DNA of 35,864 nt. It comes from Cyanobacteria bacterium FACHB-63. Lineage in GTDB: Bacteria; Cyanobacteriota; Cyanobacteriia; Leptolyngbyales; Leptolyngbyaceae. Below are positions 3,293 through 31,857 of the stretch, one piece after another. Where the stretch lies: positions 1-35,864 of the forward strand of contig JACJNX010000131.1 of NCBI GenBank assembly GCA_014695255.1. The letters run 5' to 3'. The notes beneath the pieces are model-generated. The model worked only from the letters and a program-made list of their open reading frames with translations. It made no database searches and was not told the origin of the DNA. The translations under genes and the position numbers were made by a program. The stretch's first letter is position 1. Each line of letters begins with the position of its first letter.

Positions 3293-3305
3293 GGACGGAG
3301 ACTGT

Positions 3306-8078: not shown

Positions 8079-8219
8079 GGACTATGCAGGTAAATAAAAG
8101 GCAGAGTAACTGAGGGCACTCTCCGAGGGTTAAAATTTGATCTCTGATTCCTGTTAAAACAATAGAGTTCGCCACGAAGATTGCCCATTTAAGTATTGGT
8201 ACAGAGGAGAGAGCAAGGG

Positions 8220-14544: not shown

Positions 14545-14549
14545 AACGC

Positions 14550-15731: not shown

Positions 15732-15804
15732 CTCTGGCTAAAGCAAAACAAGCAGCAAGGATTCAGATTCTTCTTAATCGTAACCAGAAAATAACTACCT
15801 CAAC

Positions 15805-15822
15805 TCATGACCTTAGTCATGA
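15805..15822 (-). promoter_or_regulatory. Palindromic operator candidate upstream of the kinase-regulator operon
   Basis: TCATGACCTTAGTCATGA is a perfect palindrome with 7-base arms around CTTA, 74 bases upstream of the kinase ATG. The core ATGAC-N4-GTCAT recurs at 29000 and 31119. On the minus strand a TACGAT hexamer lies about 24 bases beyond the palindrome and could be a -10 element, which would place the palindrome near the -35 position. Autoregulation by the NarL-type regulator is inferred. Confidence 0.65.
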
Positions 15823-16448
15823 TTGTGCCCTATCAGGTTCGGGGCTGTGCAATCATTTTTCTACACAAGCCTATCATTTCCAAACTGTGTCGTTAATCAG
15901 GAAATTTCAGCAGTTGGACTGAAGCTTCACTAACTAAGCATTTTTCCGGTTTCTGGTTTAGTGAAAATCATCATGCAGCAAAAATTCAGAGTTTGTTTTG
16001 CGAAACTTTTCTGGAACGGCTCCCTTTTAGAACTAGCGTGTGCTTTGCAGCTTGCGATAACTTCGTTACACGGGTACGTGTTCGCGCTAATCGCGCTGGT
16101 TCAACTGCCTGCGGTCTCTCAATCCCTCCGCAGCGCTAAAAATATACCATTAGATAATATCTATCACGAGAATGAAAACTTACCCAACGGTGCAGATATC
16201 TTTCCTCGACTCGGAAAAATTGCAGGCAATGATCGAGAGCAAACAAACTGCCGGAGTTCACCTTGGGGTCGAGTCGTGAGCCGTTTTTCGGGAAATTCAT
16301 CTATTCATATTGATGACCGTCGCGTCGATCGTAATGGTGAATCCTGGTTCTATAACCGCGAGCACGTACCCGTGTAGCGAAGCTATCGCAACTGTTGGAT
16401 TCACGATAGCCGCATTGATTTACTGTGAACGATAGAGGACAACATCAA
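15823..16448. other. Gene-poor stretch with foldback repeat
   Basis: About 600 bases separate the kinase promoter from the lipoprotein operon. A 138-codon open frame (15961-16377) crosses the first repeat arm and ends in the second. Its middle part (FSGNSSIHIDDRRVDRNGES, then WFYN) vaguely recalls an SH3-like domain. I do not treat it as a gene. A short stem CTGCGG/CCGCAG occurs at 16108-16133. Confidence 0.5.
16052..16391. repeat. Long inverted repeat enclosing 260 bp (MITE-like foldback)
   Basis: Arms 16052-16091 and 16352-16391 are inverted copies, 35 of 40 positions matching. The shared core is TACACGGGTACGTG. The mismatches include three transitions. The 260-bp interior encodes no recognised transposase. 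The right arm ends about 58 bases before the lipoprotein ATG. This could be a miniature inverted-repeat element, or two copies of a short interspersed repeat in opposite orientation. Confidence 0.75.
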
Positions 16449-17180
16449 ATGGTCAGTCGCAAAAAACAAGCTTACATTGCTCTTTTAGCAAGTTGGCTGA
16501 TGCTAAGTAGTGCGATCGCTAGCTGTACAAAAACTGAACCGTCAGGAAATGCACAGCCTAAAGCCATTCCTCCCGCCGTCGTTGCTAGTTCAGCCGCTTC
16601 AAAAGATTTGGGAATACAGCGATGGACAACGGTACTAAAGGGCGAATCGATGCAGGGCTTGACTTTTACAAACGATGGGAAGCTGTTGTACCGAAACAAT
16701 GTTTTGCTCAAAGAGATTCCGGTTAGCTATGTCAGTAACGGGAATGTTACCTATGCTCAACGCTTGATCGTTTCTAATCCTTCTCCATCGGGTCGATTTA
16801 ATGTGATTAGAGCTTGTGAAAGCCCAACGAATGAAACCGGACTCTGTTGGGCTGTTTTTCTGCTCGATCGACAGTCAGGAACGATCGAGAAAATTAGCAT
16901 CGCCAAGTACGGGGGGCAAGAGTGGGTAGAGTGGTCAGCCGATGAACGCTATGCAGTATTTGCAGAATCAATGGAAGGCGTTTCTTGGTTTGTTGTTCTC
17001 GATGTGCAAACTAAAGAAACGAGGATGTTTGAACAAACGGCTGCAACTGCTGATTTAGCAAGCTTCAAATGGATCGACGATCGTACCTTTGTGGCAAATA
17101 TGCTTTGTGGCGATCGAACTGACTGCCCAAAGTCACAATTTCGCGGCAACATTTCCCAACTGTTTACTAAATCGTTGTAA
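16449..17180 (+). CDS. Putative lipoprotein, propeller-like repeats
   Basis: A 243-residue exported protein. The N-terminus is a lipoprotein signal: basic MVSRKKQ, a hydrophobic core, then lipobox IASC with the acylated Cys at 26. After a Pro/Ala-rich linker the rest is beta-rich, with blade-like units such as LTFTNDGKLLYRN, VEWSADERYAVFAES and FKWIDDRTFVAN, which resemble TolB/WD-type propeller strands. Only a few blades are present. The ATG at 16449 has AGAGGAC about 8 bases upstream, so it is preferred to a GTG at 16425. It is the first of three consecutive plus-strand genes for exported proteins, with gaps of 30 and 9 bases, so an operon is likely. Its function is unknown. Confidence 0.8.
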   Translation: MVSRKKQAYIALLASWLMLSSAIASCTKTEPSGNAQPKAIPPAVVASSAASKDLGIQRWTTVLKGESMQGLTFTNDGKLLYRNNVLLKEIPVSYVSNGNVTYAQRLIVSNPSPSGRFNVIRACESPTNETGLCWAVFLLDRQSGTIEKISIAKYGGQEWVEWSADERYAVFAESMEGVSWFVVLDVQTKETRMFEQTAATADLASFKWIDDRTFVANMLCGDRTDCPKSQFRGNISQLFTKSL

Positions 17181-17210
17181 TTGCATTGTTTAATTCCTCA
17201 AAAGTTTCTC

Positions 17211-18245
17211 ATGAAACGTAAATTGCTTACTCAGTCACTCACGATCGCAGTTCTCGTTGGATTGATGATTGCGCCATCTGCTCGATCTCAGTCATCCTCT
17301 TCGTGTCCGCAGTTTTTCTACCCGCCATTACCGACTAATTTTCGTCCGAAGCTAGTGCAAGAATTGAAGGAACATACTGGTTTTGTCTATGGCATGACGT
17401 TTAGCTGTGACGGGCAAACGTTGATCTCAACGAGCAGCACCAAAGATAAAGCCGTTCGGTTGTGGAATTGGCGATCGGGTCAACAACAACTTAGCTTTGC
17501 TGCGGAGAATCCAGATGATTGGTTTACCGCTGCTTTCTTATCACCTGACCGCAAAACCCTAGTGACTGCTGATTCTATTGGTAGAATTCAACTCCGAGAT
17601 CCTCAAACAGGAGGTGTGCGATCCCTGTTTCCAGCTCGCACTCGTGGTGCAGGGATTGTCACCTTGACCCGTGATGGACAAACACTGATAGATGCAACAG
17701 GGACAGGTGGAGACTTCAACATCACCTTATGGAACTTCAAAACCCAGCAACAAGAACAATTAATTCTGGGCAATTGGGCAAATTTATGGATGATCACCTC
17801 GGATAGTTATACGCTCGCATCTGCCAGCATGAATGGCACAGCGGGAGTTTGGGATCTTCGTACCCGAAAAGTTGTTGCCACGTTGCCAATCGGCGCTACT
17901 GTGGAAGCGATAGCAATTGCGCTCACCCCTGATGCGGAGTGGCTGATCGTCGCTTATGGTGATGGTTCTGTCAAACGGTGGAATGCCAGAACCGGGCGGC
18001 TTGATCGTACTCTATTTCGAGGAATTTCACCTCAATCCATTGCGACTAGCCCCGATGGTCGAACATTAGCGATCGGCTACTACAACCACATCCGTTTATG
18101 GAACCTCAGCACAAATCGCCTGCTTCATAACCTCCCTGCCAATTCTCCTAGTCGTCAACAGTTGCGCTTCAGCCCGGACGGTCGATTTTTCCTCAACACT
18201 GATGAAGAGGGCGACATAATCCGCGTTTGGCAACTTACTCCCTGA
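17211..18245 (+). CDS. Exported WD40-repeat protein
   Basis: A 344-residue protein with a cleavable signal peptide (MKRKLLTQ, hydrophobic stretch, APSARSQS). The mature part is a WD40-type beta propeller. Recognisable blade ends include AVRLWNWRSG, IQLRDPQTGG, ITLWNFKTQQ, AGVWDLRTRK, VKRWNARTGR, IRLWNLSTNR and IRVWQLTP, giving about seven blades. Blade starts such as FSPDGR and LTPDAE are also present. WD40 propellers serve as protein-binding platforms, and here it would act outside the cytoplasm. The frame is open from a TTG at 17181, but the ATG at 17211 begins the signal peptide cleanly. It lies 30 bases after the lipoprotein gene and 9 bases before the alpha-solenoid gene, suggesting one complex or pathway. 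Confidence 0.88.
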   Translation: MKRKLLTQSLTIAVLVGLMIAPSARSQSSSSCPQFFYPPLPTNFRPKLVQELKEHTGFVYGMTFSCDGQTLISTSSTKDKAVRLWNWRSGQQQLSFAAENPDDWFTAAFLSPDRKTLVTADSIGRIQLRDPQTGGVRSLFPARTRGAGIVTLTRDGQTLIDATGTGGDFNITLWNFKTQQQEQLILGNWANLWMITSDSYTLASASMNGTAGVWDLRTRKVVATLPIGATVEAIAIALTPDAEWLIVAYGDGSVKRWNARTGRLDRTLFRGISPQSIATSPDGRTLAIGYYNHIRLWNLSTNRLLHNLPANSPSRQQLRFSPDGRFFLNTDEEGDIIRVWQLTP

Positions 18246-18254
18246 AGAAAAGAG

Positions 18255-20573
18255 ATGATTCAATTAAAAGCTGATAGAGTTTTAACAAAAGTCGTTGCGT
18301 TTCTGTGTCTAAGCATCTCGATCGCGAGTGAGACATTACAGCCATCGACTGCAATTGCCCTTACGCTAGGACAATCTACACCTAATGCCTCTACTTCTAG
18401 TTGTCAGGCAGAAAGGCAGCAAGCCGAAGCAGCGCTGTTAAATGCTGTTTTTGAACAAACAGAGCAGACTATCGCTAGTGGTCAACTTGATGCTGCTTCT
18501 CAATTGCTCGTTCGGGCACTCCAGCAAATACAGGCAATGCCGAATTCCTCTACTAAGATTAACTTATTGGAACGACTCGTCGGCAGTTTAGGCGAGAATG
18601 TTGCCTACACGAGTCCATTAGAACGACTGATGCGAGCTGTCCCCGCTCAAACTCCTCAAGCTGCCTTAGCTGTGTTGTCTACTGCAAATGAAACGAATAA
18701 ATCTCTCAGCAGTAGTTATAGCGCCTCTAAAGTTCGTACTTTCGTTGCGCTTGCCAATTACTTTACTCAGTTAGGACAAATTGATCGCAGCAGTAGCATT
18801 CTTGGATATGCTGCAACCACCAGCTACACGATTCAGGGAGTAGAGTTGCAGACGATCGCTGTCAGCAATATTGCTGAAGCCTATCTCAATGCAAAACAAA
18901 TTTATAGCGTCCCCCCGTTTTTGGACCGGGCACTTCAACTCGCTCAAACCGTCAATCATTCCAATCCCTACTGCAAAGCAAACGCCCTAGATCGAATTGC
19001 CAGCCTTTATGCCCGTTTGGGTCAACTCGATCGCGCTCTAGAAGTCGCCCGCTTAATCCAGGTGCCAAACTACCATCCGCTAGTGATTCTGACAATTGTA
19101 AACCGATATAGCGAAACAGGGCAGGTTGATCGTGCCCTAGAACTCCTGCAAACCCTATCACAAGCTGATCAAAAAGCAACCGCCCTAGCAACACTAGCCG
19201 GACGATCAACGGGTTTACAGCCTCAGCGAGCTAGGCAACTTTATGCACAAGCCGTTACAACAGCGCGATCGACACAGAACGTAAACGAGGTCATCGCGAA
19301 TGTCGCGCTCCGTTATATTGAAGCAGGTGGCTTGGTGACAACGGCAGATGAAACGATTCAAACAATTACTGATCCGGTTGTAAAAGCTTTGGCATTAGCA
19401 GCGATCGCACTATCCTATGCTAAATCTGAGCAAAACAATCAAGCTGAAATTCGCTTAACACAAGCGATTAAAGTATTAGAAGCAATTTCTGAACCAGGGA
19501 GCCGTAACACTGCAAGACAGCAGTTAATCGATCAAGCAACTCAAAGCGGGCGCTATGATTATGCGCTACGAATCACTCAAACAATTCAGCCACAAGAGAA
19601 AGTCCCTATTGATTGTGTTGAGGTACAAGCCCAAATTGCAGAACGCGCGATCGCAGCGAATCGTTATGATGCTGCTTTGCAAATTACACAGCAAATTCCA
19701 CCCAGCTTTGCCAGTTGGCGCGATCGTCTGCTTCCTCCCATCTTAAAAGAATTGGTGCGAACGAAAGCATTCGATCAAGCGTTAGAAATTGCTCAACAAA
19801 AGAATCCTGATCCTAGCTTTCAGCCGCGTATGCTAGCGATTATTGCAGCACAAGCGAAACGATCAGGACAAAATGAACGATCAACGGCTCTATTTAATCA
19901 GGCAATCCAACTTGCGAATCAGATTGATGATGCTTCTACTAAAAGCGGAACCTTGGGAGCGATCGCCCAAGCTTATCTAACCATAGGACAATTAGAGCAA
20001 GCCACCCGACTTCTCAACCAAACAATTTCAGTTGCACAAGCAATTTCAGATATTTCTACTCGTTCCTACACCTTGAGAAGTATTGCTGAACAATTGACTT
20101 TTGCTAATCACTATCAAGCTGCAATTCAAGTTGCTGAGGCAATCCCAGATCCATCCGAACGACTTGCAAAACTGAATGAGGCAATGGAAAAAGCGATTAA
20201 TGCAAGAAATTTTGTGGTAATACTGACCACGCTGAGTCGCTTGGATGATCCAGTCTTCAAAGCACGTTGGTTCTTAGCGGTTGCCGATCGCTATATTCAA
20301 TTAAGTGAATCAAATCAGGCAGCGAATGTGTTAAACCAGGCGTTACAAGTCACTCGCACCATTCCAGGCAACGAATCAAAAACGATTGCAGTACGAGGAG
20401 GTGAGAATCCGCTCGTAGTTGATGACCATGAAGATCGCGGTAGTTTTTTGATGGCGATCGCGTTAAAGTATGCTCAAATCGGGCAAGTTTCACAAGCACA
20501 ACAGATTGTTCAAACACTACAAGATGCTGCGATTCGGCAGCAATTAATACAACAAATCAACTGTTATCGTTAA
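18255..20573 (+). CDS. Exported alpha-solenoid (TPR-like) repeat protein
   Basis: A 772-residue protein with an N-terminal signal sequence of about 36 residues. The rest is Ala/Gln/Leu-rich helical hairpins repeated through the whole length. Examples are IASGQLDAASQLLVRALQQI, LNAKQIYSVPPFLDRALQLA, YARLGQLDRALEVARLIQ, YSETGQVDRALELLQTLSQA, LTIGQLEQATRLLNQTISVA and YAQIGQVSQAQQIVQTLQ. The G-x-x-x-x-A pattern and spacing fit degenerate TPR units. No catalytic motif was seen. The ATG at 18255 follows GAAGAAAAGAG and starts 9 bases after the WD40 gene stop, so the two are likely co-translated. The role is probably a scaffold for protein-protein contacts in the periplasm or at the envelope. Confidence 0.85.
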   Translation: MIQLKADRVLTKVVAFLCLSISIASETLQPSTAIALTLGQSTPNASTSSCQAERQQAEAALLNAVFEQTEQTIASGQLDAASQLLVRALQQIQAMPNSSTKINLLERLVGSLGENVAYTSPLERLMRAVPAQTPQAALAVLSTANETNKSLSSSYSASKVRTFVALANYFTQLGQIDRSSSILGYAATTSYTIQGVELQTIAVSNIAEAYLNAKQIYSVPPFLDRALQLAQTVNHSNPYCKANALDRIASLYARLGQLDRALEVARLIQVPNYHPLVILTIVNRYSETGQVDRALELLQTLSQADQKATALATLAGRSTGLQPQRARQLYAQAVTTARSTQNVNEVIANVALRYIEAGGLVTTADETIQTITDPVVKALALAAIALSYAKSEQNNQAEIRLTQAIKVLEAISEPGSRNTARQQLIDQATQSGRYDYALRITQTIQPQEKVPIDCVEVQAQIAERAIAANRYDAALQITQQIPPSFASWRDRLLPPILKELVRTKAFDQALEIAQQKNPDPSFQPRMLAIIAAQAKRSGQNERSTALFNQAIQLANQIDDASTKSGTLGAIAQAYLTIGQLEQATRLLNQTISVAQAISDISTRSYTLRSIAEQLTFANHYQAAIQVAEAIPDPSERLAKLNEAMEKAINARNFVVILTTLSRLDDPVFKARWFLAVADRYIQLSESNQAANVLNQALQVTRTIPGNESKTIAVRGGENPLVVDDHEDRGSFLMAIALKYAQIGQVSQAQQIVQTLQDAAIRQQLIQQINCYR

Positions 20574-20622
20574 TTTTTATGGGCAATTGAAGTGAATGAT
20601 TCAAGAAGTCTATCACCATCGG

Positions 20623-21372
20623 TTAAATCAGTTTACGAGACACAAACCAGAAAGTTAGCAATGAGAATCCTGTAAGTGCAATGCAGTCAATTACAATGCG
20701 TTGCCTCATTGGCTCTAACAACGTTTGTTTGAGCGCTGATGCAGCGTAGGTAGCGGGACTTAGATATCCAATGCCCTGCACAACTTCTGGCAAGCGACTA
20801 GCAGGCAACAAAACCGGACCCATAAACAATGCCAACATCGTCACCAATAGCGTTAATCCTCCTCCCACTTCTGGAGTCGGACACTTTGCCCCGATCGCTG
20901 CTCCAATTCCCGCTAGCGGAAAAACGCATAAGGGAATGACCAGCAGAATCAACGGATGAAGCATCAATGGTCGGTGTAAAAACCATGCGCCAAAACCAAT
21001 CGTGACCAGTAAAGACGGAAATGACAGTACAAAAAAAGATAGCACAACTGCAATCACGAGCAGCGATCGTCGAATTGGTAGTGTGGCGTAATACTCTAGT
21101 GCGCCAGAGAATCGCATATAAGCAAATCGAGAAGAGACGTTCTCTAAATTGCCGAACATAAGAGACATGACTAAGCTACCAGCGAAAATTGCATTCAGAG
21201 ATTCAGCATCTTGTCTGGAAGCAAAGCTGCCTAACGCAATGATGCTTAGGATTGGACTAACTGTGGCGGTTAGCACCATAACCTGCCACGACCAGCGCCA
21301 ATTGCTCAGCTCCATACACAGCAAATCGAACAGTTGTAGTAGGAATGGCAGCGGTTTACGAGTGGTTTGCAT
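20623..21372 (-). CDS. ABC-2 type transporter permease
   Basis: A 249-residue integral membrane protein with about six hydrophobic segments, the usual count for ABC-2 exporter permeases. Family-like features are a polar N-terminus, the SGALEYYATLPIRRS elbow between early helices, and PTPEVGGGLTLLVTMLALFM followed by LSPATYAASALKQTL near the C-terminus. It would form the membrane channel of an exporter with the ATPase encoded directly upstream. Its ATG lies inside the last codons of the original ATPase frame, a 17-base overlap typical of coupled translation. The ATPase now has a premature stop, so the permease may be poorly translated or orphaned. Substrate is unknown. Confidence 0.9.
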   Translation of the reverse strand: MQTTRKPLPFLLQLFDLLCMELSNWRWSWQVMVLTATVSPILSIIALGSFASRQDAESLNAIFAGSLVMSLMFGNLENVSSRFAYMRFSGALEYYATLPIRRSLLVIAVVLSFFVLSFPSLLVTIGFGAWFLHRPLMLHPLILLVIPLCVFPLAGIGAAIGAKCPTPEVGGGLTLLVTMLALFMGPVLLPASRLPEVVQGIGYLSPATYAASALKQTLLEPMRQRIVIDCIALTGFSLLTFWFVSRKLI

Positions 21373-22270
21373 AGTGTAGATAGAGATCCTCTAAGGTGGC
21401 AGAGTAGAGACGAAAATCATCAATCTGAGCAAGGTCAAGGCTGTTGAGAATTGGCTCGACCTGATGCCATTCTAGGAACACGCGCCAATGTCCTGGAGCA
21501 GGACGATCTCATCTCAGTTCCAGTGGTAAGCGAGGAGGAGTTTCAGGCTCAAAGAATAGCTCCAAACGTAGCAATCGATCCACTTGCCGTTTCAGTTCAC
21601 TCGGACGACCGATCGCCACCAGTTTTCCCGCCCGCAAGATTCCAACCCGTTGAATTGCCTTTTCTGCCTCGATCGCATCATGGGTAATTAGAATAATTGT
21701 TGTTCCTTGTTCTCGATTCAGTTGTCGCAGATTATCCCACACCAGTTTACGACGCTGTGGATCAAGATCATTCGTGGGTTCATCTAAGATGAGAATCGGA
21801 GGAGAACCTGCCATTGCTACGGCTAATCGCAGTAATCGCAGTTGTCCACCGGAAAGCCGAGCCGCAGATTGATTGCGCCATTCAGTCATTTTCCATTGAT
21901 CAAGCAGGCGATCGCATTCTTGGTGTGCCTCGCGCCGACTCATCCCCCGGAGATGCGCGGTGAAGTACAGACTTTCTGCAATGGTCAGATTTTTGACTGC
22001 CCCACTTTCTTGAGGCATATAGCCGACATTCAACTGCACGATGTGAGGAATAGTGTTGATCGATCTACCTAAAAATGCGATCGTTCCAGCACTGCTCGGA
22101 AGCAAGTTGACCATCTGCTTGACCAAAGTACTTTTGCCCGCGCCATTGTCTCCTAAAATACCGAAAATCTCACCCTGGTGAATTTGCAGTGTAATGGGAT
22201 CATTCACAGGTTTAGATTGTCCTGGATAGACCTTGACGAGATCTTGGACATCATAAATTAGCATGAGCAA
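21356..22270 (-). pseudogene. ABC transporter ATPase interrupted by an in-frame TGA
   Basis: Nucleotide-binding subunit of an ABC-2 exporter. Walker A is GDNGAGKST (40-48), the Q-loop is MPQES, the signature is LSGGQ (139-143), Walker B is ILILDEPT (159-166) and the switch is His197 (THD). The frame meets TGA at 21509-21511 after residue 253. Reading on without shifting gives about 50 more codons with a normal family C-terminus (DDFRLYSATLEDLYLHY), which end at 21356 inside the permease start. The lesion is therefore one nonsense change, most simply CGA to TGA. The core ATPase domain is complete before the stop, so the shortened protein might still work. It could also be a sequencing error. 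Confidence 0.82.
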
Positions 22271-22324
22271 TAAGACTTGTCTTCAAAAACTGTTGTACTT
22301 CAACCCTGAATGGCGCGACCCTCT

Positions 22325-23033
22325 TCAACCATGAGAATGAACTGGGGCGTAATAATGCGAATAATTGTTATCTGTTCGTATCGCATAGGGTAGGTGCCCA
22401 GCATCGTTGAAAGAAAGCAGTCGTATGGTTTCATTAGTATCAATCCGTACTTCACTGATTGCACAGTTGTACATATCCAAAGATGACCATAGCTCGATCG
22501 GCAAATGAAGGACACGGCAGAGTAAAGAACCAATCAAATTGCCATGACTCACAATGAACTCGTGAGTAATTCCTGTCTCCGGAGGGTTGGAAGTATGTCT
22601 CAAATACTTGCTGTGATTGAACTTCTCCTGCGGCGACTGCCTCAAAATCAATACGATGTGTCCAAAGGCTCAAATAGGGGCGGATATTTTCAGGGATAAC
22701 ATGCTTATCCTTGTCAGGTGGTTCAATTTGATGAATTGCGTACCAGTCACGGAAGTGTTTTGGCAAACCAGGAACACATTCACATAGTAACGGTGATGCA
22801 TGAATCGGCAGATTGCCGCACAATTCAGCGATTATCTGTGCGGTTTCTAGAGCACGTGGGTAAGTACTACAATGCAAGGTATTAATAGGAAGAGTACTCA
22901 GTCGCAAACCTGTTCGCTGTGCTTGTTCTCGCCCAAGTGTCGTTAAAAGCCATCCTTTTGGAGTCGGTGGGCGAGTGGTGAGATCAATCTGCCCGTGGCG
23001 AACTAAATGTAGGATGCGTTGTGCCATAATCAC
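22325..23033 (-). pseudogene. Histidine phosphatase family protein, frameshifted
   Basis: Phosphoglycerate-mutase-like phosphatase in two frames. The first part (from 23033) has the catalytic LVRHGQ (His13), LGREQAQRTGLRL and STYPRALETAQI. It stays in family register to QQVFETYFQ. The second half (THEFIVSHGNLIGSLL, then FNDAGHLPYA), which carries the second catalytic His, is in the other frame and ends at 22325. The frames join if one base is removed from the GGG at 22584-22586 (CCC in coding sense), giving about 235 residues. Proteins of this superfamily remove phosphate from small molecules or proteins through a phospho-His; the substrate here is unknown. The ATG could be at 23033 or 23027. 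Confidence 0.85.
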
Positions 23034-23245
23034 ACCTTCTTAAATTTGATGAGAAATTACAGACGATTTGCAGTAGCCAACCTTAGTCTTCAATTCAAGC
23101 TTCTACCTCGTTATGTTGAATTATGCAATCTTCCTTGCAAGCTCAAGATATTTTCTGCAAGTTGAAACAAGATGTACCTATCAATCGTCTCATTATTCAA
23201 GGGATGCTTACCTCTTCGATACGTTCTATCGCCAAAGACTACATC

Positions 23246-23802
23246 ATGAGAATTCTTTCATCCTTAATATCTGTACTATTTCTTGCGGCAGCACTATCAG
23301 CGTGTAATTCAAAAGCAAATCCAATTCTAGGCGATTCATCGAGTTCATCTCCAACTCCATCTGTGCCAATCAATTCACCCATCTCTACCACCAGTACAGT
23401 TCCGGGATCAACCTTAAACATTGGACTTTTTACAATGGATGATCTGTTCAATCAAAATGGTGGTGGTTGTGGAATGACACTATGGAAACAATCAGATGGT
23501 CTGCGTCCTCCTGGCTATTTGTTTTACAATCGACTGGCTCAAAAAGCAGGTGATGCTTTCACGTTGATGAAGATCAATGGTCAATTGTGCGCTTCCGCCG
23601 TATTGCTTCAACAGGACAAGAATTTTATGGACAGCGAACATCTCAAACTTTCATCAGTCAAGACAAATCTATCCAGCTACAAGTAGATGTAACGCTGGGT
23701 CAACCTGGGGAAATTGAATCATATGCAGTTGAAGGCACTATGCAAGTAAAACACAATAGGCAAACAGTAAAAATTCCAGTTCGAGGGAGTGCTGGATGCT
23801 AA
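23246..23802 (+). pseudogene. Small lipoprotein gene with single-base frameshift
   Basis: The ATG at 23246 starts a lipoprotein signal (MRILSSLISVLFLAAALSAC, acylated Cys20), then a Ser/Thr/Pro linker and a globular domain with GGGCGMTLWKQSDG and LFYNRLAQK. At about 23587 the frame changes. The downstream frame reads VRFRRIASTGQEFYGQRTSQ and ends GSAGC at 23802. Restoring one base (a G making GGTGCGC) joins them into about 185 residues. Without it the protein ends at 23686 with unrelated residues. No family name is recognised. The frame is open upstream to 23123, but the lipobox fixes the start. Confidence 0.7.
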
Positions 23803-23897
23803 GGATGAGACAACATTAACCTGCTCCTCAGTGATTTGTGATCAATCGGGGTTAGCATAGCGATCGCACCGTTGATCATAACCTTGATGATAAAACA

Positions 23898-24953
23898 TCA
23901 TGGTTCAGATTGTAGGGTCGCGATCGTCTGCTCTAACTCCCACGCAAATTCAAGTTCTGATGTTTCAGCCAGAACATCTTTCAGAGCTAATAGATACGCC
24001 GTTTTGAAAGCTTGTTCTGCTGAAGTTTTGATATCAGGTTCCACGCCGATTCCTTCCCAATTTGATCGCGTAATTGGATTAACAGCACGACCTGTGGGAA
24101 TAAAGACACCAAAGTGTTCATTAAGGGATTGAAATTGACCTGGATTTGCGCCTCCTCCGGTTGTTTCACCAACGATTGTGGCGCGTTTAAGGTGCTTCAA
24201 ATTGTTCGCAAACTCTTCTGCGGCTGAAAAGGTAAAGGAACTGCTCAATACATATACTGCTCTATTGAGATACCGTTTCCCAGGAACATAAGGTAATGTC
24301 CAGTATTGTTGAACTCGCTCATAATAAACACCATCGGAGTCCTTTTCGCGCCAGTGTAAATCATTCAAATGTACAGGTTGATTCTCAAATAGATAGGTTG
24401 AAATCAGCGCAACAGTACGAGGTGAGCCGCCCCCATTCTGTCGCAGGTCGATGATCAAGGCAGCCGTGTTACTCAAGCAATTCAGGGCTGCAATCACGGT
24501 TTCTCCGGCTAACTCTGGTGGCGCAAATCCTCGTAAATCGAGGTAGCCAATGTTTCCTGCTAATCGCTCAATTTTATACACTCCATTATTTTGCCAAGCG
24601 GTATAACGCCGTTCTCGTTCCTGATCTGCTGGAGCTATTAGCTTTCCGGTGTGGTCAGTTATCGGCAGGGGTTGATAACTATAGAATACTTGCAGATGCT
24701 TATCATGGCTAATCTCTTGAAGTTGTTTCGTTAACACTTCTGCTAGTGTTTTTGCGCTTGTAATGCTTGCGTAGCTACCACTCCAGAGCTGGCTGTTAAT
24801 CTCAGTTTGAATCCTCTGTGTCACTTCTGGAAAAATATACCGATTTAAAGTCAAAATTAGGGTTTCAACAACCTTGATAGTCACTTCAGGAGCGATGGTT
24901 AAATCGGGTTGATCAGCTTGAGATAAATCTTGAGAAACGTGTTCTAAAGGCAT
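23898..24953 (-). CDS. S41-family peptidase (IRBP/C-terminal processing type)
   Basis: A serine peptidase of family S41, about 351 residues from the chosen start. The N-terminal helical domain (VVETLILTLNRYIFPEV) is that of the IRBP-like subgroup. The core shows IGYLDLRGF, ALIIDLRQNGGGSPR and YVLSSSFTFSAAEEFANNLK, with the nucleophile Ser in FTFSAAE. It continues to GETTGGGANPG and IGVEPDI. No signal peptide is visible, so a cytoplasmic role or a misplaced start is possible. The frame is open to an ATG at 25079, but that would overlap the AraC gene by 56 bases and add 42 non-family-like residues. Neither start has a strong ribosome-binding site. It lies directly downstream of the AraC-type regulator. 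Confidence 0.88.
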   Translation of the reverse strand: MPLEHVSQDLSQADQPDLTIAPEVTIKVVETLILTLNRYIFPEVTQRIQTEINSQLWSGSYASITSAKTLAEVLTKQLQEISHDKHLQVFYSYQPLPITDHTGKLIAPADQERERRYTAWQNNGVYKIERLAGNIGYLDLRGFAPPELAGETVIAALNCLSNTAALIIDLRQNGGGSPRTVALISTYLFENQPVHLNDLHWREKDSDGVYYERVQQYWTLPYVPGKRYLNRAVYVLSSSFTFSAAEEFANNLKHLKRATIVGETTGGGANPGQFQSLNEHFGVFIPTGRAVNPITRSNWEGIGVEPDIKTSAEQAFKTAYLLALKDVLAETSELEFAWELEQTIATLQSEP

Positions 24954-25023
24954 AGGATCAGGTAGATAGGAACTAGCTTTGAACCATGAAGAAATCGCAG
25001 ATAATCCGAGAAACCTCTGATTT

Positions 25024-25884
25024 CTAGCGTAGTTCGTTGCAGTGGGCAGCGTCTTGAACGTTTTTGCAAGAGACGGCATATTGTCTCGGAGTCGCTCCTA
25101 CAATGCGTTTGAAGTGTCGAGTTAAGTGGCTTTGATCCGTGAAGCCTGTTGCGATCGCAACACTACTGATCGGTATTCCTTTCGTCAAATTCTGTTTAGC
25201 ACGAGCGATTCTAATCTGAATCAAGTACTGATGCGGCGGTAAACCTAATTGCTTGCGGAATGCTCTTAACAAGCGAAGGGACTGTAAACCCGTTATCTCT
25301 GAAAGTTGTTCGAGCGAAATGTTCTGATTGTAGTGTTCTTCTAAATAGTTTCTTGCCTGCGTTACTGCTCGCATCTCTGAACCGATGCTGGGTAGTTCTG
25401 GACGGTCTCTTGTGTATCGAGTCAGCAAGCGCGTTAAAGTCAAAAGTAGATGACTCTCTCGGATCAGACTAGAATGAGGTTGCATTGAAGCAGTATGCAA
25501 CCGCCAGATTTGCTGAGCAAGTCCGCGATCTTGAATTGCAGCAAATGGAAAAAAGGGAAGTTTTTGGCGATCGGTAATCTCTAACATCACCTGCTCAAGC
25601 ATTGTATGACTTGGATAGAGCATCCGGTAAGTCCAACCTGCTTCATTAGTTGCACCACAGGAATGAATTTCATCTGGGTTAAATAAAACGATACTGCCTA
25701 CAGGAATGGTGTAAGTTGTCCCCGCTTGTACCGTTTTAACGCTACCCTGCTCAACGATACCGATCCCAAAGGTTTCATGGGAGTGACGTGGGAAGATGTG
25801 ATTAATATAGGTAGCTCGCATAAATTCCAGGTTTTTCAAGCTCTGAACTTGCCAGAACTGAGCCTGCTCAGTTATTTTTTGCAT
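25024..25884 (-). CDS. AraC-family transcriptional regulator
   Basis: A 286-residue regulator. The N-terminal cupin-like sensing domain shows HIFPRHSHETFGIGIVEQG, then IPVGSIVLFNPDEIHS, as in the AraC_binding family. The C-terminal 100 residues carry the two HTH units: LEEHYNQNISLEQLSEITGL and SSVAIATGFTDQSHLTRHFK, followed by GATPRQY. It would bind a small ligand and activate or repress nearby genes. Its 3' end abuts or overlaps the S41 peptidase gene, so the two probably share a transcript. A plus-strand GNAT gene starts 130 bases away in the opposite direction and is another candidate target. Confidence 0.93.
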   Translation of the reverse strand: MQKITEQAQFWQVQSLKNLEFMRATYINHIFPRHSHETFGIGIVEQGSVKTVQAGTTYTIPVGSIVLFNPDEIHSCGATNEAGWTYRMLYPSHTMLEQVMLEITDRQKLPFFPFAAIQDRGLAQQIWRLHTASMQPHSSLIRESHLLLTLTRLLTRYTRDRPELPSIGSEMRAVTQARNYLEEHYNQNISLEQLSEITGLQSLRLLRAFRKQLGLPPHQYLIQIRIARAKQNLTKGIPISSVAIATGFTDQSHLTRHFKRIVGATPRQYAVSCKNVQDAAHCNELR

Positions 25885-26013
25885 CCTGCCAACTCCATCA
25901 CTAAATTACAGTGGAAATTTAGCGTACTCTTGAATGTCTAATCCTAAAACACTTGATCAATGTTGTAGCAGCTATAGTGATTGGTTGTAATAATAGGTTG
26001 TAAAGGAGTACAA

Positions 26014-26556
26014 ATGGTAGTTCTCGAAACGAAGCGTTTGATTCTTCGGATGTTTAAGGAGAGCGATTTTGAAGACTATGCTGAGATGTTCGGCAATCAA
26101 GACGTTGTGAGGTACTTGGGAGATGGACAAGTTCTCTCTCGCTTTGCTGCATGGCGGAGTTTAGCTGTGATGGTTGGGCATTGGTCTTTACGCGGTTACG
26201 GAATGTGGGCAGTCGAGGAGCGCAGCAGTGGCAATCTCATCGGGCGAATTGGCTTTTTCTACCCAGAAGGCTGGGCTGGGTTTGAGTTAGGTTGGGTCCT
26301 CAAACCAGCTTACTGGGGAAGAGGATATGCTACGGAGGGCGCGAAAGTCGCTCTGGACTACGGATTTGCTCAACTCAACCAGGACTCGGTAATCAGCCTG
26401 ATTTATCCTGAGAACGTTCGATCGATTCGAGTGGCAGAGCGCCTAGGTGAAAAACTGCAAGGGAAAACGGAAATATTTGGCAACGAAGTATTTATTTATG
26501 GCATCGATCGTACAGCTTGGATTGCCACTCATTCAAACGGATTAGCATCGAGCTAG
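26014..26556 (+). CDS. GNAT-family N-acetyltransferase (RimJ/RimL-like)
   Basis: A 180-residue acetyltransferase. The N-terminus LETKRLILRMFKESDFEDYA is the usual RimJ/RimL-type opening. The acetyl-CoA-binding motif is PAYWGRGYATEGAKVAL, and the C-terminal strand has YPENVRSIRVAERLGEK. It would transfer acetyl from acetyl-CoA to an amine on a protein or small molecule; the substrate cannot be told. The ATG at 26014 has a strong AAGGAG 8 bases upstream, so it is preferred to a TTG at 25981. It is divergent from the AraC gene and heads a loose plus-strand group with the nucleotidyltransferase and VOC genes. Confidence 0.92.
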   Translation: MVVLETKRLILRMFKESDFEDYAEMFGNQDVVRYLGDGQVLSRFAAWRSLAVMVGHWSLRGYGMWAVEERSSGNLIGRIGFFYPEGWAGFELGWVLKPAYWGRGYATEGAKVALDYGFAQLNQDSVISLIYPENVRSIRVAERLGEKLQGKTEIFGNEVFIYGIDRTAWIATHSNGLASS

Positions 26557-26701
26557 GTGACGGATGTCCCATTCTTGACTTTTCCCTTGGAGCAGACTCC
26601 ATTCTAGTAGCATGAGCCACTTTTCAAGATTCTGTTCATAGAGCAGTAAATGTCAAGCCAAGTGATTTGACAGTAAAAATTTGGGAGGGGATCGTTGAGC
26701 C

Positions 26702-27727
26702 ATGACAATTGATTCTGATATACCTCTGATCCAAGCAACAGGTCTGCCTCAAATTGACGCTCTTCTGAGCAAAATCGTGCAGCATGTTGTATTGAGGTTA
26801 GGCGATGCTCTGTTAAGTTGCTATTTGATTGGTAGTTATGCAGTTGGTGAAGCAGTTACAACGAGTGATGTCGATCTTTTAGTCGTTTGTAGAGGCAACG
26901 CTAGCAGCACTGAAAAACAAAAAATTGCTGAGATCCAAGTTGAATGCCAGCAGTTTAGCCCGCTTAGCATCGACCTCAGACCAATGGGCGAAACGCATTT
27001 GTTAACCACTGGAGGTGTACGCTTTCAGGCAGATAGCCTGCTGCTCTATGGCAAGGATATTCGCAAAAGTGTGCCCCAAAAACCTGTGAATGATCATATT
27101 CGAGATAGTTTATACGCTCAAATTGATTTATTTGCACGAGTGCGTCCTCACTTGCAAAGGCTGATTGTGCCGTTGACTTACCCTGATTCTCAAGGATTGT
27201 TTTACGGGTACGATCGTCGTCCTCTGCAAACAGCAGATGGCGCTAGCTATCCAGGAATCAAAGATTTGGGATTGATTGTGTATGGAGCGGCTTATGCTCT
27301 GACCTTGCTCAAAGCAAATCGATACGCTGGAACAGGTCGAAAAAGTGAGATCGCTTTGCACTATCGCGAGCAAATTGGGGATGAATGGACATCTCTCATT
27401 GAAGCCATTGATCAACAGTGTCGCAAGCAATGGGCGTATTTGATTCCTCATGTCCAAAGTCAACAACAGCATCTCAGGCAACTTTGTGAACAAACATTAA
27501 AGTTTGAGAATCATTTTCTTGCTGAATATAAAGCTTATCTGCTCACCCATCTACTACAAGCTGATGCCTTCATTCAACTTCGGTACTTGCAGCAATTAGA
27601 GCGGCTCATTTATCCAGATCAGGACATATTTGATCTGCTAAAATCTCTTGAGTACAGCGATCTCGACGATATTAGAGAAGCAGCGACGAGTACAATACGC
27701 TATTATCAGTGCATAGATTTGGAATAG
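26702..27727 (+). CDS. Nucleotidyltransferase-fold protein
   Basis: A 341-residue protein. Residues 42-62 carry the pol-beta-type signature: GSYAVGE (44-50) and SDVDLLVV with metal-binding Asp56 and Asp58. SIDLRPM may supply the third acidic residue. The C-terminal two thirds are helical, as in aminoglycoside adenylyltransferase-like and related enzymes (LGLIVYGAAYALTLLKANRY, then KSEIALHYREQIGDEW). It would transfer a nucleotide from an NTP to an alcohol or protein target; the substrate is unknown. GGGAGGGGA precedes the ATG by about 10 bases. The VOC gene starts 39-54 bases after its stop. Confidence 0.85.
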   Translation: MTIDSDIPLIQATGLPQIDALLSKIVQHVVLRLGDALLSCYLIGSYAVGEAVTTSDVDLLVVCRGNASSTEKQKIAEIQVECQQFSPLSIDLRPMGETHLLTTGGVRFQADSLLLYGKDIRKSVPQKPVNDHIRDSLYAQIDLFARVRPHLQRLIVPLTYPDSQGLFYGYDRRPLQTADGASYPGIKDLGLIVYGAAYALTLLKANRYAGTGRKSEIALHYREQIGDEWTSLIEAIDQQCRKQWAYLIPHVQSQQQHLRQLCEQTLKFENHFLAEYKAYLLTHLLQADAFIQLRYLQQLERLIYPDQDIFDLLKSLEYSDLDDIREAATSTIRYYQCIDLE

Positions 27728-27781
27728 AATGTTTGCCGTTTTTGAGTTTCTTCAACAGGAGCAACCGTGGAGATTCTAATT

Positions 27782-28210
27782 ATGGAAGACAGTCCCAGCA
27801 TTATTTCTCATCTCTCGATCGGCACGAATGATTTCGATCGAGCCGTTGCCTTTTATGATGCTGTACTACCAACACTCGGTTGCAAGCGCATTATGGAACA
27901 TTCAGGTGCGGTTGCGTATGGGAAGCAATATCCAGAATTTTGGGTGCAAACACCCATTAATGGACAGCCTGCTTCAGTTGGGAACGGAACGCACATTGGC
28001 TTTATTGCTCCTACGAAGGAGGCTGTCCACGTTTTTTATGAAGCAGCACTAGCGGCTGGCGCCACAGATGAGGGTGCTCCTGGAGCGAGACCCGATTATG
28101 GTGAACCGTATTATGGATGCTTTGTGCGTGATCTGGATGGGCATAAGATTGAAGCCTCTTATTGGGACATGCAGCTTGTTCACGCACTCTACATTGATGC
28201 ACCAGAATGA
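27782..28210 (+). CDS. VOC-family (glyoxalase/bleomycin-resistance fold) protein
   Basis: A 142-residue single-domain protein of the vicinal oxygen chelate superfamily. The N-terminal beta-alpha-beta unit has ISHLSIGTNDFDRAVAFYDA. The second half has GTHIGFIAPTKEAVHVFYEA, YYGCFVRDLDGHKIEASYWD. The likely metal ligands are the His of SHLSIG, the His of GTHIGF and the Glu of KIEASYW. Members act as lyases, dioxygenases or drug-binding proteins; this one cannot be assigned. A GTG at 27767 with AGGAG upstream is an equally good start and adds five residues. It is likely co-transcribed with the nucleotidyltransferase. Confidence 0.88.
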   Translation: MEDSPSIISHLSIGTNDFDRAVAFYDAVLPTLGCKRIMEHSGAVAYGKQYPEFWVQTPINGQPASVGNGTHIGFIAPTKEAVHVFYEAALAAGATDEGAPGARPDYGEPYYGCFVRDLDGHKIEASYWDMQLVHALYIDAPE

Positions 28211-28255
28211 TCAGCGATCAACGTGCCTGGACTTTCGCGCGATCGCGAATTTCCT

Positions 28256-28915
28256 TTAGTATGGTTCTCCTTGAATGTACTCCTGGCTAGGAACGATATC
28301 AACTGGTTGAGGTAAAGGTCGCGTTACTGAAGAAGGTTCAGTAACGCTGGGTTGGGCTGGAATCAACACATTCCCAGTTTGCTCGGATTTACGTAGCGGT
28401 GGTTCTACAACAGTAGATGCAGCAATTTGAATGAGTTCTTGCTGAGAAAGGCTACCCCGATCCGTCCCCAGGACGAATCCAACCCCATCTTGCTGCCAGA
28501 GCACATAATGGTCTGCCGTTTTGCCTTTACCGACAATCAAGTAATAGCCTTGAATTCCATCAGGCAAACTTACCGGAGTGCCCTTTTTCAACTGACGTGC
28601 CCATGGAGAAAATCCTTCCTGGGTAAATGCAGCAAGCCCACCCACTGAACACTTTGGCTGGTTACAATTTGCTTCAGAAGAGAGATACAACTGTAATCCC
28701 TTTGAGTTCGACTGGACAAAAGGATGCAAGGTTAAGGCAGCTTCAGGCAGATAGGAGGGAAGCCGCATTTGTAATCCATTTGGAAGTTGCCGCTGAATGT
28801 TCTCAAGAACAGAGCGAAAAAGAGGTGCAGGCTCTGCTTGGGCAGACATGGGACTCATTACAAGCCACAAAAACAATAAGGAACCGATTCTGGAATACTG
28901 GCTGAAATGCTTCAT
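28256..28915 (-). CDS. Hypothetical exported protein
   Basis: A 219-residue protein with a signal peptide (MKHFSQYSRIGSLLFLWLVM, then SPMSAQAEP) and no internal membrane segment. I do not recognise the family. The mature region has a beta-rich core with two Cys in NCNQPKCSVGG that could form a disulfide, an LPDGIQGYYLIVGKGKT stretch, and a low-complexity Pro/Ser/Thr tail ending PSQEYIQGEPY. The ATG at 28915 is chosen over a TTG at 28930. A palindrome shared with two other promoters lies 85 bases upstream, followed by a TATAGAT-like -10 box, so it may belong to the regulon of the NarL-type regulator at 13888. Confidence 0.78.
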   Translation of the reverse strand: MKHFSQYSRIGSLLFLWLVMSPMSAQAEPAPLFRSVLENIQRQLPNGLQMRLPSYLPEAALTLHPFVQSNSKGLQLYLSSEANCNQPKCSVGGLAAFTQEGFSPWARQLKKGTPVSLPDGIQGYYLIVGKGKTADHYVLWQQDGVGFVLGTDRGSLSQQELIQIAASTVVEPPLRKSEQTGNVLIPAQPSVTEPSSVTRPLPQPVDIVPSQEYIQGEPY

Positions 28916-28999
28916 TGATTCAACTCTCAATTACTTCAATAATCAGCAGTATAGAGAAATAGAAAGTAATAGAATCTATACAAAAGTCACCGATTCGCA

Positions 29000-29013
29000 A
29001 TGACGAAAGTCAT
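29000..29013 (-). promoter_or_regulatory. Palindromic operator candidate, copy 2
   Basis: ATGACGAAAGTCAT has the same 5+5 arms and 4-base spacer as the site upstream of the DesK-like kinase. It lies 85 bases upstream of the exported-protein ATG at 28915. On the minus strand TATAGAT follows 19 bases after the palindrome, placing the palindrome at the -35 position. Confidence 0.62.
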
Positions 29014-29033
29014 CGTCCATACTGTCAAAGCTA

Positions 29034-29966
29034 CTAGAAGAGTGTGGAGCGATCAACATCCAGAATTTTTTGAATTCTTGCTCTCACTTGAACGTAATCT
29101 TCTGGATCGTTCCGAATTGCTGCAATCGCTAAACCCTTCAACCCGATATGGAGCATGTAACAACGCAGTCGTTCTTCAAAATAGCAAAGTGAGAGATCTA
29201 TTTCTTTGTCTTTTGCCCAATGCTGCCATTGCTGTTTGTAGCAAATATCCTCAGACCAAAACTCTAAATAGGCAATATCGTAAACATAATCTCCTAGCAG
29301 CAATTCCGCCCAATCCAGGACACCCGTGATCTGCTGCCTATCAGATATCACATTACCAAACCCAAAATCACCATGTACCCAATATTTACCAGAAGAGCAG
29401 AACTCTAAATCCTTCAAAATAATAGCAAGAGCTTTGTCATAGATCTCTTGCTCCATGAATGTATCCTGAATGAGTTGCTTCCACGTAAAGGGGAATTTCT
29501 GGTTATAGAACGACAACAAATACGATTGCCAAGATGCAAAGCGACCCTGACCAGAAGCATCGGTGAGTCCCCAACCGGGGTAATCTGAACTATCCAAAGT
29601 GTGAATTGCTAACAGCGTGTCAAATAACTTCGGAAGTACTTGCTCGATCTCTTGCGGTTCCATATCATTCAACGTCACCCCTATACAGCGTTCTGTAATT
29701 GCGAAATAGTACAATTCGTTGAAGCGACCAGATTGAATCACCCGTGAAATTGGCAATTTGGATGAAGTAAACTGCTGATACGCAAAGGCATCCTTCTGAA
29801 AGTCTTCTTGACAGGCATTGAGTCGAATGATGAACGATTGTCGATCGAGCGTAAACGAAAATGCTTGGGAAAACATTCCTGACCCAATCAGTGAGACATC
29901 TGACACCGATCCATCAAACTGAGATTGGAGAAAGTGAGCCACTAAGGCGGTGGTAATACTTGCCAT
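29034..29966 (-). CDS. Aminoglycoside phosphotransferase (APH)-family kinase
   Basis: A 310-residue protein with the APH/choline-kinase fold. The catalytic loop is HGDFGFGN (His198, Asp200, Asn205) and the metal-binding segment is LDWAELLLGDYVYDIAYLEF (Asp218). The N-lobe has IGSGMFSQAFSF and a candidate ATP-contacting strand FIIRLN, though the usual Lys is not evident. It would phosphorylate a small hydroxylated compound. Whether that is an antibiotic is unknown, because many family members phosphorylate sugars or choline-like metabolites. It starts 7 bases after the GNAT gene stop and is the last of a three-gene minus-strand operon (DHFR-like, GNAT, APH). Confidence 0.9.
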   Translation of the reverse strand: MASITTALVAHFLQSQFDGSVSDVSLIGSGMFSQAFSFTLDRQSFIIRLNACQEDFQKDAFAYQQFTSSKLPISRVIQSGRFNELYYFAITERCIGVTLNDMEPQEIEQVLPKLFDTLLAIHTLDSSDYPGWGLTDASGQGRFASWQSYLLSFYNQKFPFTWKQLIQDTFMEQEIYDKALAIILKDLEFCSSGKYWVHGDFGFGNVISDRQQITGVLDWAELLLGDYVYDIAYLEFWSEDICYKQQWQHWAKDKEIDLSLCYFEERLRCYMLHIGLKGLAIAAIRNDPEDYVQVRARIQKILDVDRSTLF

Positions 29967-29973
29967 TGTCGAT

Positions 29974-30519
29974 TTATCTGCCTAAATCGGACTTCAGCAG
30001 TCCATATAAATAATCATCCACGAACTTACCATTCCGATAGACATGCTGGCGTTGGATGCCTTCTAGCTGAAAGCCATTCTTCTCTAGAACTCGCCGCGAT
30101 CCTGAGTTAAACTCGAAAACTCGCGTCCACAAACGAAGTAAATTTAAGTCTGTGAAGGCATAATGAACAAAGTTCCTAACCACTTCAGTCATGATTCCCT
30201 GTCCCCAGTATTCAGGGGCAAGCCAATACCCTAGTTCCGCAACGTAAGATTGAGGATCAATCTCGCCAATCCCAATCGAGCCGATCAATTCCGCATTTGA
30301 GTTGCGAATTGCTAGTAAAGGGGGCTTGCCGAATTGACGAGTGAGATTTGTCTGACGTTGAATCCACTGGTTGGCATGTTCCTGCGTGTAAGGGTATGGA
30401 ATGGCTTCAGTTGTTTCATGAATGAGTGGGTTATTCAAATGCTCAATATAGGCGATCGTATCTGAAGGTTGTAAGTTTGACAATGAAAAACTATTGTTGA
30501 GTGATAGTGTAATAATCAT
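29974..30519 (-). CDS. GNAT-family N-acetyltransferase
   Basis: A 181-residue RimJ/RimL-type acetyltransferase. Key features are TEAIPYPYTQEHANQWIQ, then GSIGIGEIDPQSYVAELGYW, the acetyl-CoA motif APEYWGQGIMTEVV and the final NSGSRRVLEKNGFQLEG. The substrate could be a protein N-terminus or a small amine. It lies 20 bases after the DHFR-like gene and 7 bases before the APH gene, so it is the middle gene of an operon whose promoter probably lies at about 31070-31135. Confidence 0.92.
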   Translation of the reverse strand: MIITLSLNNSFSLSNLQPSDTIAYIEHLNNPLIHETTEAIPYPYTQEHANQWIQRQTNLTRQFGKPPLLAIRNSNAELIGSIGIGEIDPQSYVAELGYWLAPEYWGQGIMTEVVRNFVHYAFTDLNLLRLWTRVFEFNSGSRRVLEKNGFQLEGIQRQHVYRNGKFVDDYLYGLLKSDLGR

Positions 30520-30539
30520 GGCGTTTCATCTGTTAAATG

Positions 30540-31061
30540 CTATTTTAGATACCGTAACAAAACCACTCCACCAGGATAAGGCTTGCATTCAACCAACTTC
30601 AAGGTTTCTTGTGTACCCGTTGCGCTAAACAGTGGAATCCCTGTACCCAGAATGATTGGAATCACTGCAATCATATATTCTGTAATGAATCCTTGTGCCC
30701 GAAAAGAAGCAGCCAATTGACCTCCTCCAACTAACCAAACTCGATTGAAGTTCTCTGCTTGTAGTTCTGCAACAATTTCACCCGGACTTTTAGCGGTCAG
30801 CCTGACTTCTGGCTGCTCAACCTTCAGCGATCGCGTGGAGACAACCCAGCACGGTTTTCCTGGATATGCCCATTCTCCAAATTCAATCACTTGCTCATAA
30901 GTCCGGCTTCCCATCAACAACGCTTCGATCGAAGCATAAAATTCTGCATATCCATAGTCATTGTCTTCAACTTGAAAATCAGAGAGCCAGTCTACGCTGC
31001 CATCAGAAGCAGCAATATAGCCATCAATGCTGACAGCAACTTGGTAAACAACCTGGGTCAT
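30540..31061 (-). CDS. DHFR-like / RibD C-terminal domain reductase
   Basis: A 173-residue protein of the dihydrofolate reductase-like fold seen in RibD C-terminal and YyaP/YwjB-type proteins. It has VAVSIDGYIAASDGSVDWL, then EALLMGSRTYEQV, WVVSTRSL, the nucleotide-binding VWLVGGGQLAASF and IPIILGTGIPLF. It would bind NADPH and reduce a pterin- or flavin-precursor-like compound; the exact reaction is unknown. The ATG at 31061 is preferred to a TTG at 31067. It is the first gene of the minus-strand operon with GNAT and APH genes, and the palindrome at 31119-31132 lies 58 bases upstream. Confidence 0.9.
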   Translation of the reverse strand: MTQVVYQVAVSIDGYIAASDGSVDWLSDFQVEDNDYGYAEFYASIEALLMGSRTYEQVIEFGEWAYPGKPCWVVSTRSLKVEQPEVRLTAKSPGEIVAELQAENFNRVWLVGGGQLAASFRAQGFITEYMIAVIPIILGTGIPLFSATGTQETLKLVECKPYPGGVVLLRYLK

Positions 31062-31118
31062 ATCCAATAATTTGCGACGTTTGAGTTTTGATCTTAAAAC
31101 ACCCTATTGGCGAATGCG

Positions 31119-31132
31119 ATGACCAAAGTCAT
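31119..31132 (-). promoter_or_regulatory. Palindromic operator candidate, copy 3
   Basis: ATGACCAAAGTCAT, again 5+5 arms with a 4-base spacer, sits between the divergent DHFR-like gene (58 bases away) and the plus-strand exported-protein remnant at 31240. On the minus strand a TTTAAGAT-like -10 follows about 20 bases downstream. A second, looser pair of half-sites (ATGACCAA and GAGTCA) lies next to it at 31142-31160. Confidence 0.62.
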
Positions 31133-31239
31133 AATCGCTTGATGACCAATTGCACGAGTCAATCATCCTACCACTTTGGTACAGTCATCTTGATACATGC
31201 CTGCTGGGCGATTGAATCACGGTACACATAGGAGGCAGA

Positions 31240-31831: not shown

Positions 31832-31857
31832 AGGCTCACTAGCCATAGTTCCACTCT

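Follow-up and report, generated by a model that had tools for sequence, protein, structure and literature searches.

A candidate DesR-like operator of a DesK-like two-component system in a cyanobacterium and its relatives

Positions 1 to 35,864 of contig JACJNX010000131.1 from Cyanobacteria bacterium FACHB-63 (hereafter the window, i.e., the whole stretch of 35,864 nucleotides that was analyzed) encode a two-component system, and a preliminary description of this DNA had proposed that three copies of the palindrome ATGAC-N4-GTCAT define its regulon. The sensor histidine kinase (14550..15731, minus strand) is DesK-like. HisKA_3 and HATPase_c domains were found above cut-off, the N-terminal half is hydrophobic, with four hydrophobic stretches before residue 180, and among solved structures the three best matches are named DesK (3gig, E 7.8e-19). 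The next two are named YocF, which we take to be another name of DesK. The partner (13888..14553, minus strand) is a NarL/FixJ-type response regulator with REC and GerE domains; compared with solved structures only, it matched VraR first (5hev, 7.4e-46), then DevR and DesR (4ldz, 3.8e-37). When 58 genomes were searched with the kinase, 46 gave a match, and that in genome G034 was the closest (72% identity).

Three palindromes at the locus

The predicted operator S1 (ATGACCTTAGTCAT, 15807..15820) lies upstream of the kinase/regulator operon, S2 (ATGACGAAAGTCAT, 29000..29013) upstream of the gene for a protein with a hydrophobic N terminus, taken as exported, and S3 (ATGACCAAAGTCAT, 31119..31132) in a divergent intergenic region; none of them is assigned a strand. 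As the preliminary description had stated, the exact motif occurs three times and no fourth copy was found, compared to a mean of 0.04 in 100 shuffles of the window, none of which reached at least 3. Allowing one mismatch added a single match (10296-10309), located within a large coding frame, and the resulting total of 4 was matched by 4 of the 100 shuffles. The arms of S1 indeed extend to seven bases each (TCATGAC-N4-GTCATGA, 15805-15822). The distances from the sites to the minus-strand ATGs, given earlier as 58 to 85 bases, measured 75 for S1, 84 for S2 and 57 for S3 (ATGs ending at 15731, 28915 and 31061). The -10-like hexamers described near the sites were also present, as TANNNT at offsets 37 (S1), 34 (S2) and 35 (S3) from the T of TGAC; at S2, however, the conserved -10 is TATACT and not this nearer hexamer.

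In the whole assembly (7.23 Mb), the motif was found in four copies and its backwards control also in four, indicating that the bare motif is not enriched genome-wide. Random placement in the genome, which the preliminary description had named as a refutation, is nevertheless not what was observed: three of the four copies are clustered in 15.3 kb of the window, and the fourth (C44, locus L004) was located inside a 419-amino-acid frame with DDE transposase domains. The bare motif gave 108 forward matches in 25 relatives compared to 86 for the backwards control (sums of the table). Because of this, a genome-wide regulon drawn from the bare motif was rejected, and an isolated copy distant from the kinase carries little meaning unless it has the third half-site described below. 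One-by-one inspection covered the loci other than L035-L059, which belong to this count, and L159-L168.

Conservation and architecture beside related kinases

An alignment of 14 kinases was used to scan the collection and provided the best 80 of 529 relatives, at 79 loci. Some of these are contigs of the first kinase search (L080, for example, agrees with G034:C22), and from their titles we take all of them to be cyanobacterial except L090, a metagenome-assembled genome labeled Gracilibacteria. The upstream regions, each of at most 700 bp with 60 bp of the match added, numbered 64 after dereplication. All inverted repeats with arms of four bases and spacers of 0 to 16 bases were counted, 4,352 in total, and TGAC-N4-GTCA ranked first, being present in 45 of the 64 regions, while the mean of all repeats was 0.93. 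The next unrelated repeat, GCGA with a spacer of 0, occurred in 23 regions; it is a word of the GCGATCGC family, presumably HIP1. GTCA-N10-TGAC, found in 21 regions, is the pair formed by a third half-site and the core. As controls, seven rearranged arms were found in 0 to 2 of the 64 regions, the site was present in 1 of 59 stretches of downstream DNA, and only 1 of 15 more distant HisKA_3 kinases had it upstream. Two of these distant loci (L025 and L026) carry sites beyond the regulator gene.

Nineteen loci had no site within 700 bp, five of which (L080, L093, L110, L115 and L131) have one at the start of a longer operon. Conservation upstream of related kinase/regulator genes, a check of the kind that the preliminary description had named for its proposal, was thus observed in 45 of 64 regions within 700 bp and in 5 more at the operon start. 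Three loci (L102:7802, L104:7798 and L109:7798) carry a second operator 3' of the regulator gene, before a small protein of about 111 to 126 amino acids with a signal-like start.

To describe the operator, we collected the sites close to the kinase start from 86 loci, dereplicated the 65 obtained to 48 and aligned these in the direction of the kinase. The core was flanked by A in 43 of the 48 sites and by T in 42. A third half-site, GTCA, was present in 28, at -14 in 20 of them and at -15 in 8; S2 and S3 have this third half-site, and S1 does not. Toward the kinase, TANNNT was located at offsets 35 to 37 in 27 of the 48 sites, compared to 0 to 7 in other windows of equal width, and on the side away from the kinase it was located at 58 to 59 in 30 sites, compared to 0 to 9 elsewhere. 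If the hexamer represents -12 to -7, the palindrome has its center some 42 bases before the point where kinase transcription starts, with the third half-site some 48 bases before the divergent start point.

A weight matrix trained without the window ranked S1, S3 and S2 as the top three sites of the window, with scores of 22.6, 17.5 and 14.0, the training median being 21.0. A weak score at 10297 falls in a kinase coding frame and was discarded. We also ran the full operator pattern, GTCAT-N9/10-TGAC-N4-GTCAT, on 291 genomes and obtained 67 matches in 41 genomes, while the backwards control gave 13. Within 1.5 kb of the operator, 18 of 30 full-operator loci harbor a kinase or regulator homologue, some at only 33 to 35% identity; 7 of these 18 were already in the collection scan and are therefore not independent of it. 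Among 20 further stretches, taken from the 37 others, 6 had a kinase or regulator homologue and 2 more had a DevB or DevC homologue. Away from the pair, full operators adjoin a mixed list of genes that includes hydrolases, a TPS-domain protein and a caspase-domain protein. One 8.16-Mb contig (G182:C5) harbors eight full-operator matches, two of them beside a kinase, and thus a candidate regulon larger than the one described here. At L236:1501-1542 (G041), two overlapping three-half-site matches of opposite facing lie inside the longest kinase frame.

Promoters, neighboring genes and a probably moved operon

The -10-like hexamer of the kinase promoter, TACGAT (15777..15782, minus strand), is at offset 37 from S1, within the peak at 35 to 37 of the 48 related sites. 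By eye, the kinase-side flank of S1 resembles a site in G009 (L204), located 3' of the exported gene there. S2 is followed, toward the exported-protein gene (28256..28915, minus strand), by a third half-site that reads TGAC on the minus strand (28986..28989); TATACT (28948..28953, minus strand), the -10 of the exported-protein promoter, is at offset 59 from S2. Gene and site together share 74% identity with their counterpart in L060 (G034:C22), where the operator lies at 8916-8929; the third half-site, with the same spacing, and TATACT are found in both. The exported protein is a neighbor of the kinase/regulator pair in 14 other loci, i.e., 15 including the window, several of which are near-identical. 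It had no Pfam match above cut-off; below cut-off, DUF4367 was matched by 8 of 14 members (E up to 5, best E 0.015). Its model has a mean predicted local distance difference test score (pLDDT) of 80, and the top folds, BT_1490, PsbP and DcrB, were matched with a best E of 3.9e-3 and template modeling (TM) scores of at most 0.36 among the first ten, so that these predicted-fold matches are too weak for a family name.

In L060, the gene order is site, exported protein, kinase, regulator, ATP-binding cassette (ABC) ATPase and ABC-2 permease, and the window contains the same genes in three groups. The ATPase (21509..22270, minus strand), whose L060 counterpart is directly 3' of the regulator gene, and its partner, the ABC-2 type permease (20623..21372, minus strand), are separated from the kinase by about 5 kb here, and the weight-matrix scan found no operator at this transporter (20623-22270). 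Over window positions 13921-29013, five gene blocks are shared with L060, in 15 kb and 18 kb, respectively, with a changed order: the kinase/regulator and glyoxalase blocks are swapped. An IS1-type (13108-13455) and a DDE (34768-35604) transposase frame flank the region and may explain the rearrangements. Positions 3228-13031 encode two hybrid histidine kinases in succession, each of about 1,610 amino acids and with several PAS and GAF domains.

In other cyanobacteria, DevBCA exporters were found beside the pair; in L061, the divergent genes pass the curated cut-offs for DevB, DevC and DevA. The other neighbor families, judged from one representative each, comprise Omp85, CAAX proteases, CorA, a beta-lactamase-family protein, TMEM175 and SfLAP. 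No site was found at four loci where CorA adjoins the kinase (L095, L098, L100 and L111). This export and envelope thread among the neighbors would fit a DesK-like membrane signal.

S3 lies between two divergent transcription units. On the minus strand, it precedes an operon encoding a RibD_C (DHFR-like) protein (30540..31061), a GNAT acetyltransferase (29974..30519) and an APH-type phosphotransferase (29034..29966), with a -10-like TAAGAT (31091..31096, minus strand) at offset 35. On the plus strand, a gene for a 306-amino-acid protein (31197..32117), which matches DUF1579 just below cut-off, is preceded by a -10-like TACAGT (31180..31185, plus strand) at offset 60, close to the peak at 58 to 59 of related divergent promoters. 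The third half-site of S3 (ATGAC in the plus-strand sequence, 31142..31146) is on the side of this second gene. Hence, while the kinase operon and the exported protein, named as targets in the preliminary description, fit S1 and S2, the RibD_C/GNAT/APH operon is only one of two candidate targets of S3. The divergent gene was also considered as a copy of the exported protein, and this was rejected, as there is no similarity between them. Four relatives of the divergent gene (26 to 43% identity) had no ATGAC-N4-GTCAT in the fetched stretches; in one of them, L201, a single TGAC core lacked the flanking A and T.

The 2.07-kb block carrying the RibD_C, GNAT and APH genes (29030-31104) has a counterpart with 92% identity in G006, a genome of the same genus (L194, 10615-12688), and no extended similarity flanks it on either side in the 25.9-kb contig. 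G006 had no match to the kinase. The comparison of the two loci indicates that one copy of the operon has moved. Since the block ends within 17 bases of both S2 and S3, it looks inserted between the two operators, and we infer that the window is where it was newly placed. A duplication of the operator upon insertion is not claimed, as the flanks of S2 and S3 agree in 7 to 9 of 25 bases, which is near chance.

An alternative holds that S1 and S2 are real and were inherited with the kinase and exported-protein genes, and that the S3 palindrome arose by chance. In its favor, relatives carry no counterpart of S3, the bare-motif count in the genome equals its control, and 1 of 30 random sequences reaches the matrix score of S3. 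However, in the 7.23 Mb of its own genome only S3 matches the full three-half-site pattern exactly, the backwards control of that pattern gave just 13 matches in 291 genomes, and the -10-like hexamers at 35 and 60 are near the expected offsets. Given the palindrome, the odds of finding GTCAT at either of the two spacings on either side are about 0.4% with equal base frequencies. We therefore regard a fortuitous S3 as unlikely.

Probable assignment of the sites to the NarL/FixJ-type regulator

The core TGAC-N4-GTCA is also that of HcpR, and it could be argued that a CRP/FNR-family regulator of this kind, with the published cyanobacterial motif TTGACnnnnGTCAA, binds the sites; HcpR sites have been described in Anabaena variabilis and Synechocystis (PMC1274295), and a literature search with the exact motif returned, in the available parts of the sources, CRP/FNR-type sites only. 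In contrast to the T and A of HcpR, the flanks here are mostly A and T, i.e., the reverse, and TTGACnnnnGTCAA is not matched. Furthermore, the sites adjoin kinase/regulator genes, with just one among the 15 more distant kinases, and the third half-site and the DesR and RR11 motifs fit a DesR-type regulator. Binding by HcpR or a relative is thus very improbable. That the three palindromes are unrelated chance occurrences would agree with the absence of a genome-wide enrichment of the bare motif and of a clear one in the 25 relatives (108 versus 86), but it has next to no standing given that no shuffle reached three copies and, for S1 and S2, given the conservation beside related kinases and of S2 in L060.

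The published motifs point to a DesR-type regulator. The DesR motif in print is ATGACA-N2-TGTCAT, and the pneumococcal RR11 candidate motif is ATGACATTTGTCAT-N7-AGTGACA, which its authors termed highly similar to that of DesR while asking for biochemical proof; the only specific RR11 target reported in the accessible part of that study is the RR11 operon itself, which includes two ABC transporter genes (PMC11034029). Like Bacillus subtilis DesK/DesR, the system described here has a kinase with DesK as its best solved match and a near-identical inverted repeat (PMC11034029). Unlike in B. subtilis, where the des gene is directly upstream of desKR (PMC7726353), no desaturase family was found among the window genes scanned or among one representative each of ten neighbor families. 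The system also resembles Bacillus YvfRS-YvfTU and pneumococcal TCS11 in that L060 has kinase, regulator, ABC ATPase and permease in one gene run, and the third-half-site spacing, GTCAT-N9-TGAC, is that of the RR11 candidate motif (PMC11034029). It differs from them in the extra exported-protein gene, first in L060, in the three groups of the window and, in other cyanobacteria, in the DevBCA exporter that adjoins the pair instead. LiaR and VraR, which are regulators of envelope stress, were the remaining comparison, as the regulator is closest to VraR among solved structures and some neighbors are envelope genes. Their operators are nevertheless different: as given in the available portions of the sources, CesR has TCAGHCTnnAGDCTGA (PMC4447274), LiaR has T(X)4C(X)4G(X)4A (PMC7191749) and pneumococcal VraR has TMMRYCTRARGWYKGA (PMC11034029), none of which is matched by the sites here.

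Several findings weigh against the assignment of S1-S3 to this regulator. Among solved structures, VraR proteins are closer to it than DesR, and S1 is without a recognizable third half-site. Of the 64 related loci, 14 had no site in the available DNA, neither in the 700 bp upstream nor at an evident operon start; contig ends cut short four of these (L092, L139, L152 and L153), and L157 has sites 3 to 5 kb upstream only. The best score in 30 random sequences of window length exceeded that of S2 in three and that of S3 in one, and S2 scored at the floor of the training set. Kinase or regulator homologues were lacking in 12 of the 30 and 14 of the 20 full-operator stretches. Finally, of 24 other RibD_C loci, the TGAC-N4-GTCA core was found only in L174, downstream of the gene, and G006 does not have the S3 site at the matching operon. 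As the matrix scores by themselves are modest evidence for S2 and S3, it is the architecture and the conservation that carry the case. These, together with the match to the DesR and RR11 motifs as published in the part of PMC11034029 available, support the earlier assignment to the NarL-type regulator, and we estimate at about 90% the probability that S1-S3 are operators of this regulator (13888-14553), which is paired with the DesK-like kinase of 14550-15731.

If the system works like DesK/DesR, the kinase would phosphorylate the regulator in response to a change in the membrane or envelope. The phosphorylated regulator would bind ATGAC-N4-GTCAT as a dimer, together with the third half-site 9 to 10 bases on, where present, and would activate, rather than repress, sigma-70-type promoters. 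S1 would provide autoregulation, S2 would drive the probably exported protein, and S3 would act on one or both divergent genes.

With a HisKA_3 kinase that has N-terminal membrane segments and a DesK-nearest core, an inverted repeat, a third half-site at S2 and S3 and, in L060, linked ABC genes, the system is a cyanobacterial member of the DesK/DesR-like (YvfTU/TCS11-like) group and not a new kind. Its new elements are the exported protein, the link to DevBCA and an operon of detoxification type that may have been captured. The window differs from loci with cyanobacterial DevBCA exporters, such as L061, in having an ABC-2 transporter near the pair. Among the top-ranked literature matches, no titles or abstract openings linked DevBCA to such a pair, and none named a DesR-type operator in cyanobacteria. 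We tentatively propose, as a possibility somewhat short of even odds, that the DesR code of an inverted repeat with a third half-site at a set distance is common to Firmicutes and cyanobacteria and runs a small membrane or envelope regulon around exporters and the exported protein. Here, the 2.07-kb RibD_C/GNAT/APH operon would have landed between two operators, no more than 17 bases from either, and been captured, its -10 being at activator distance from S3.

Overall, a little-described but widespread cyanobacterial two-component system gains a testable operator, a list of targets and a likely class of signal, and DevBCA-type exporters are tied to a DesR-like regulator. At this locus, moreover, a moved operon can be seen next to the operator of a local regulator, and this landing place may have brought it under that regulator.

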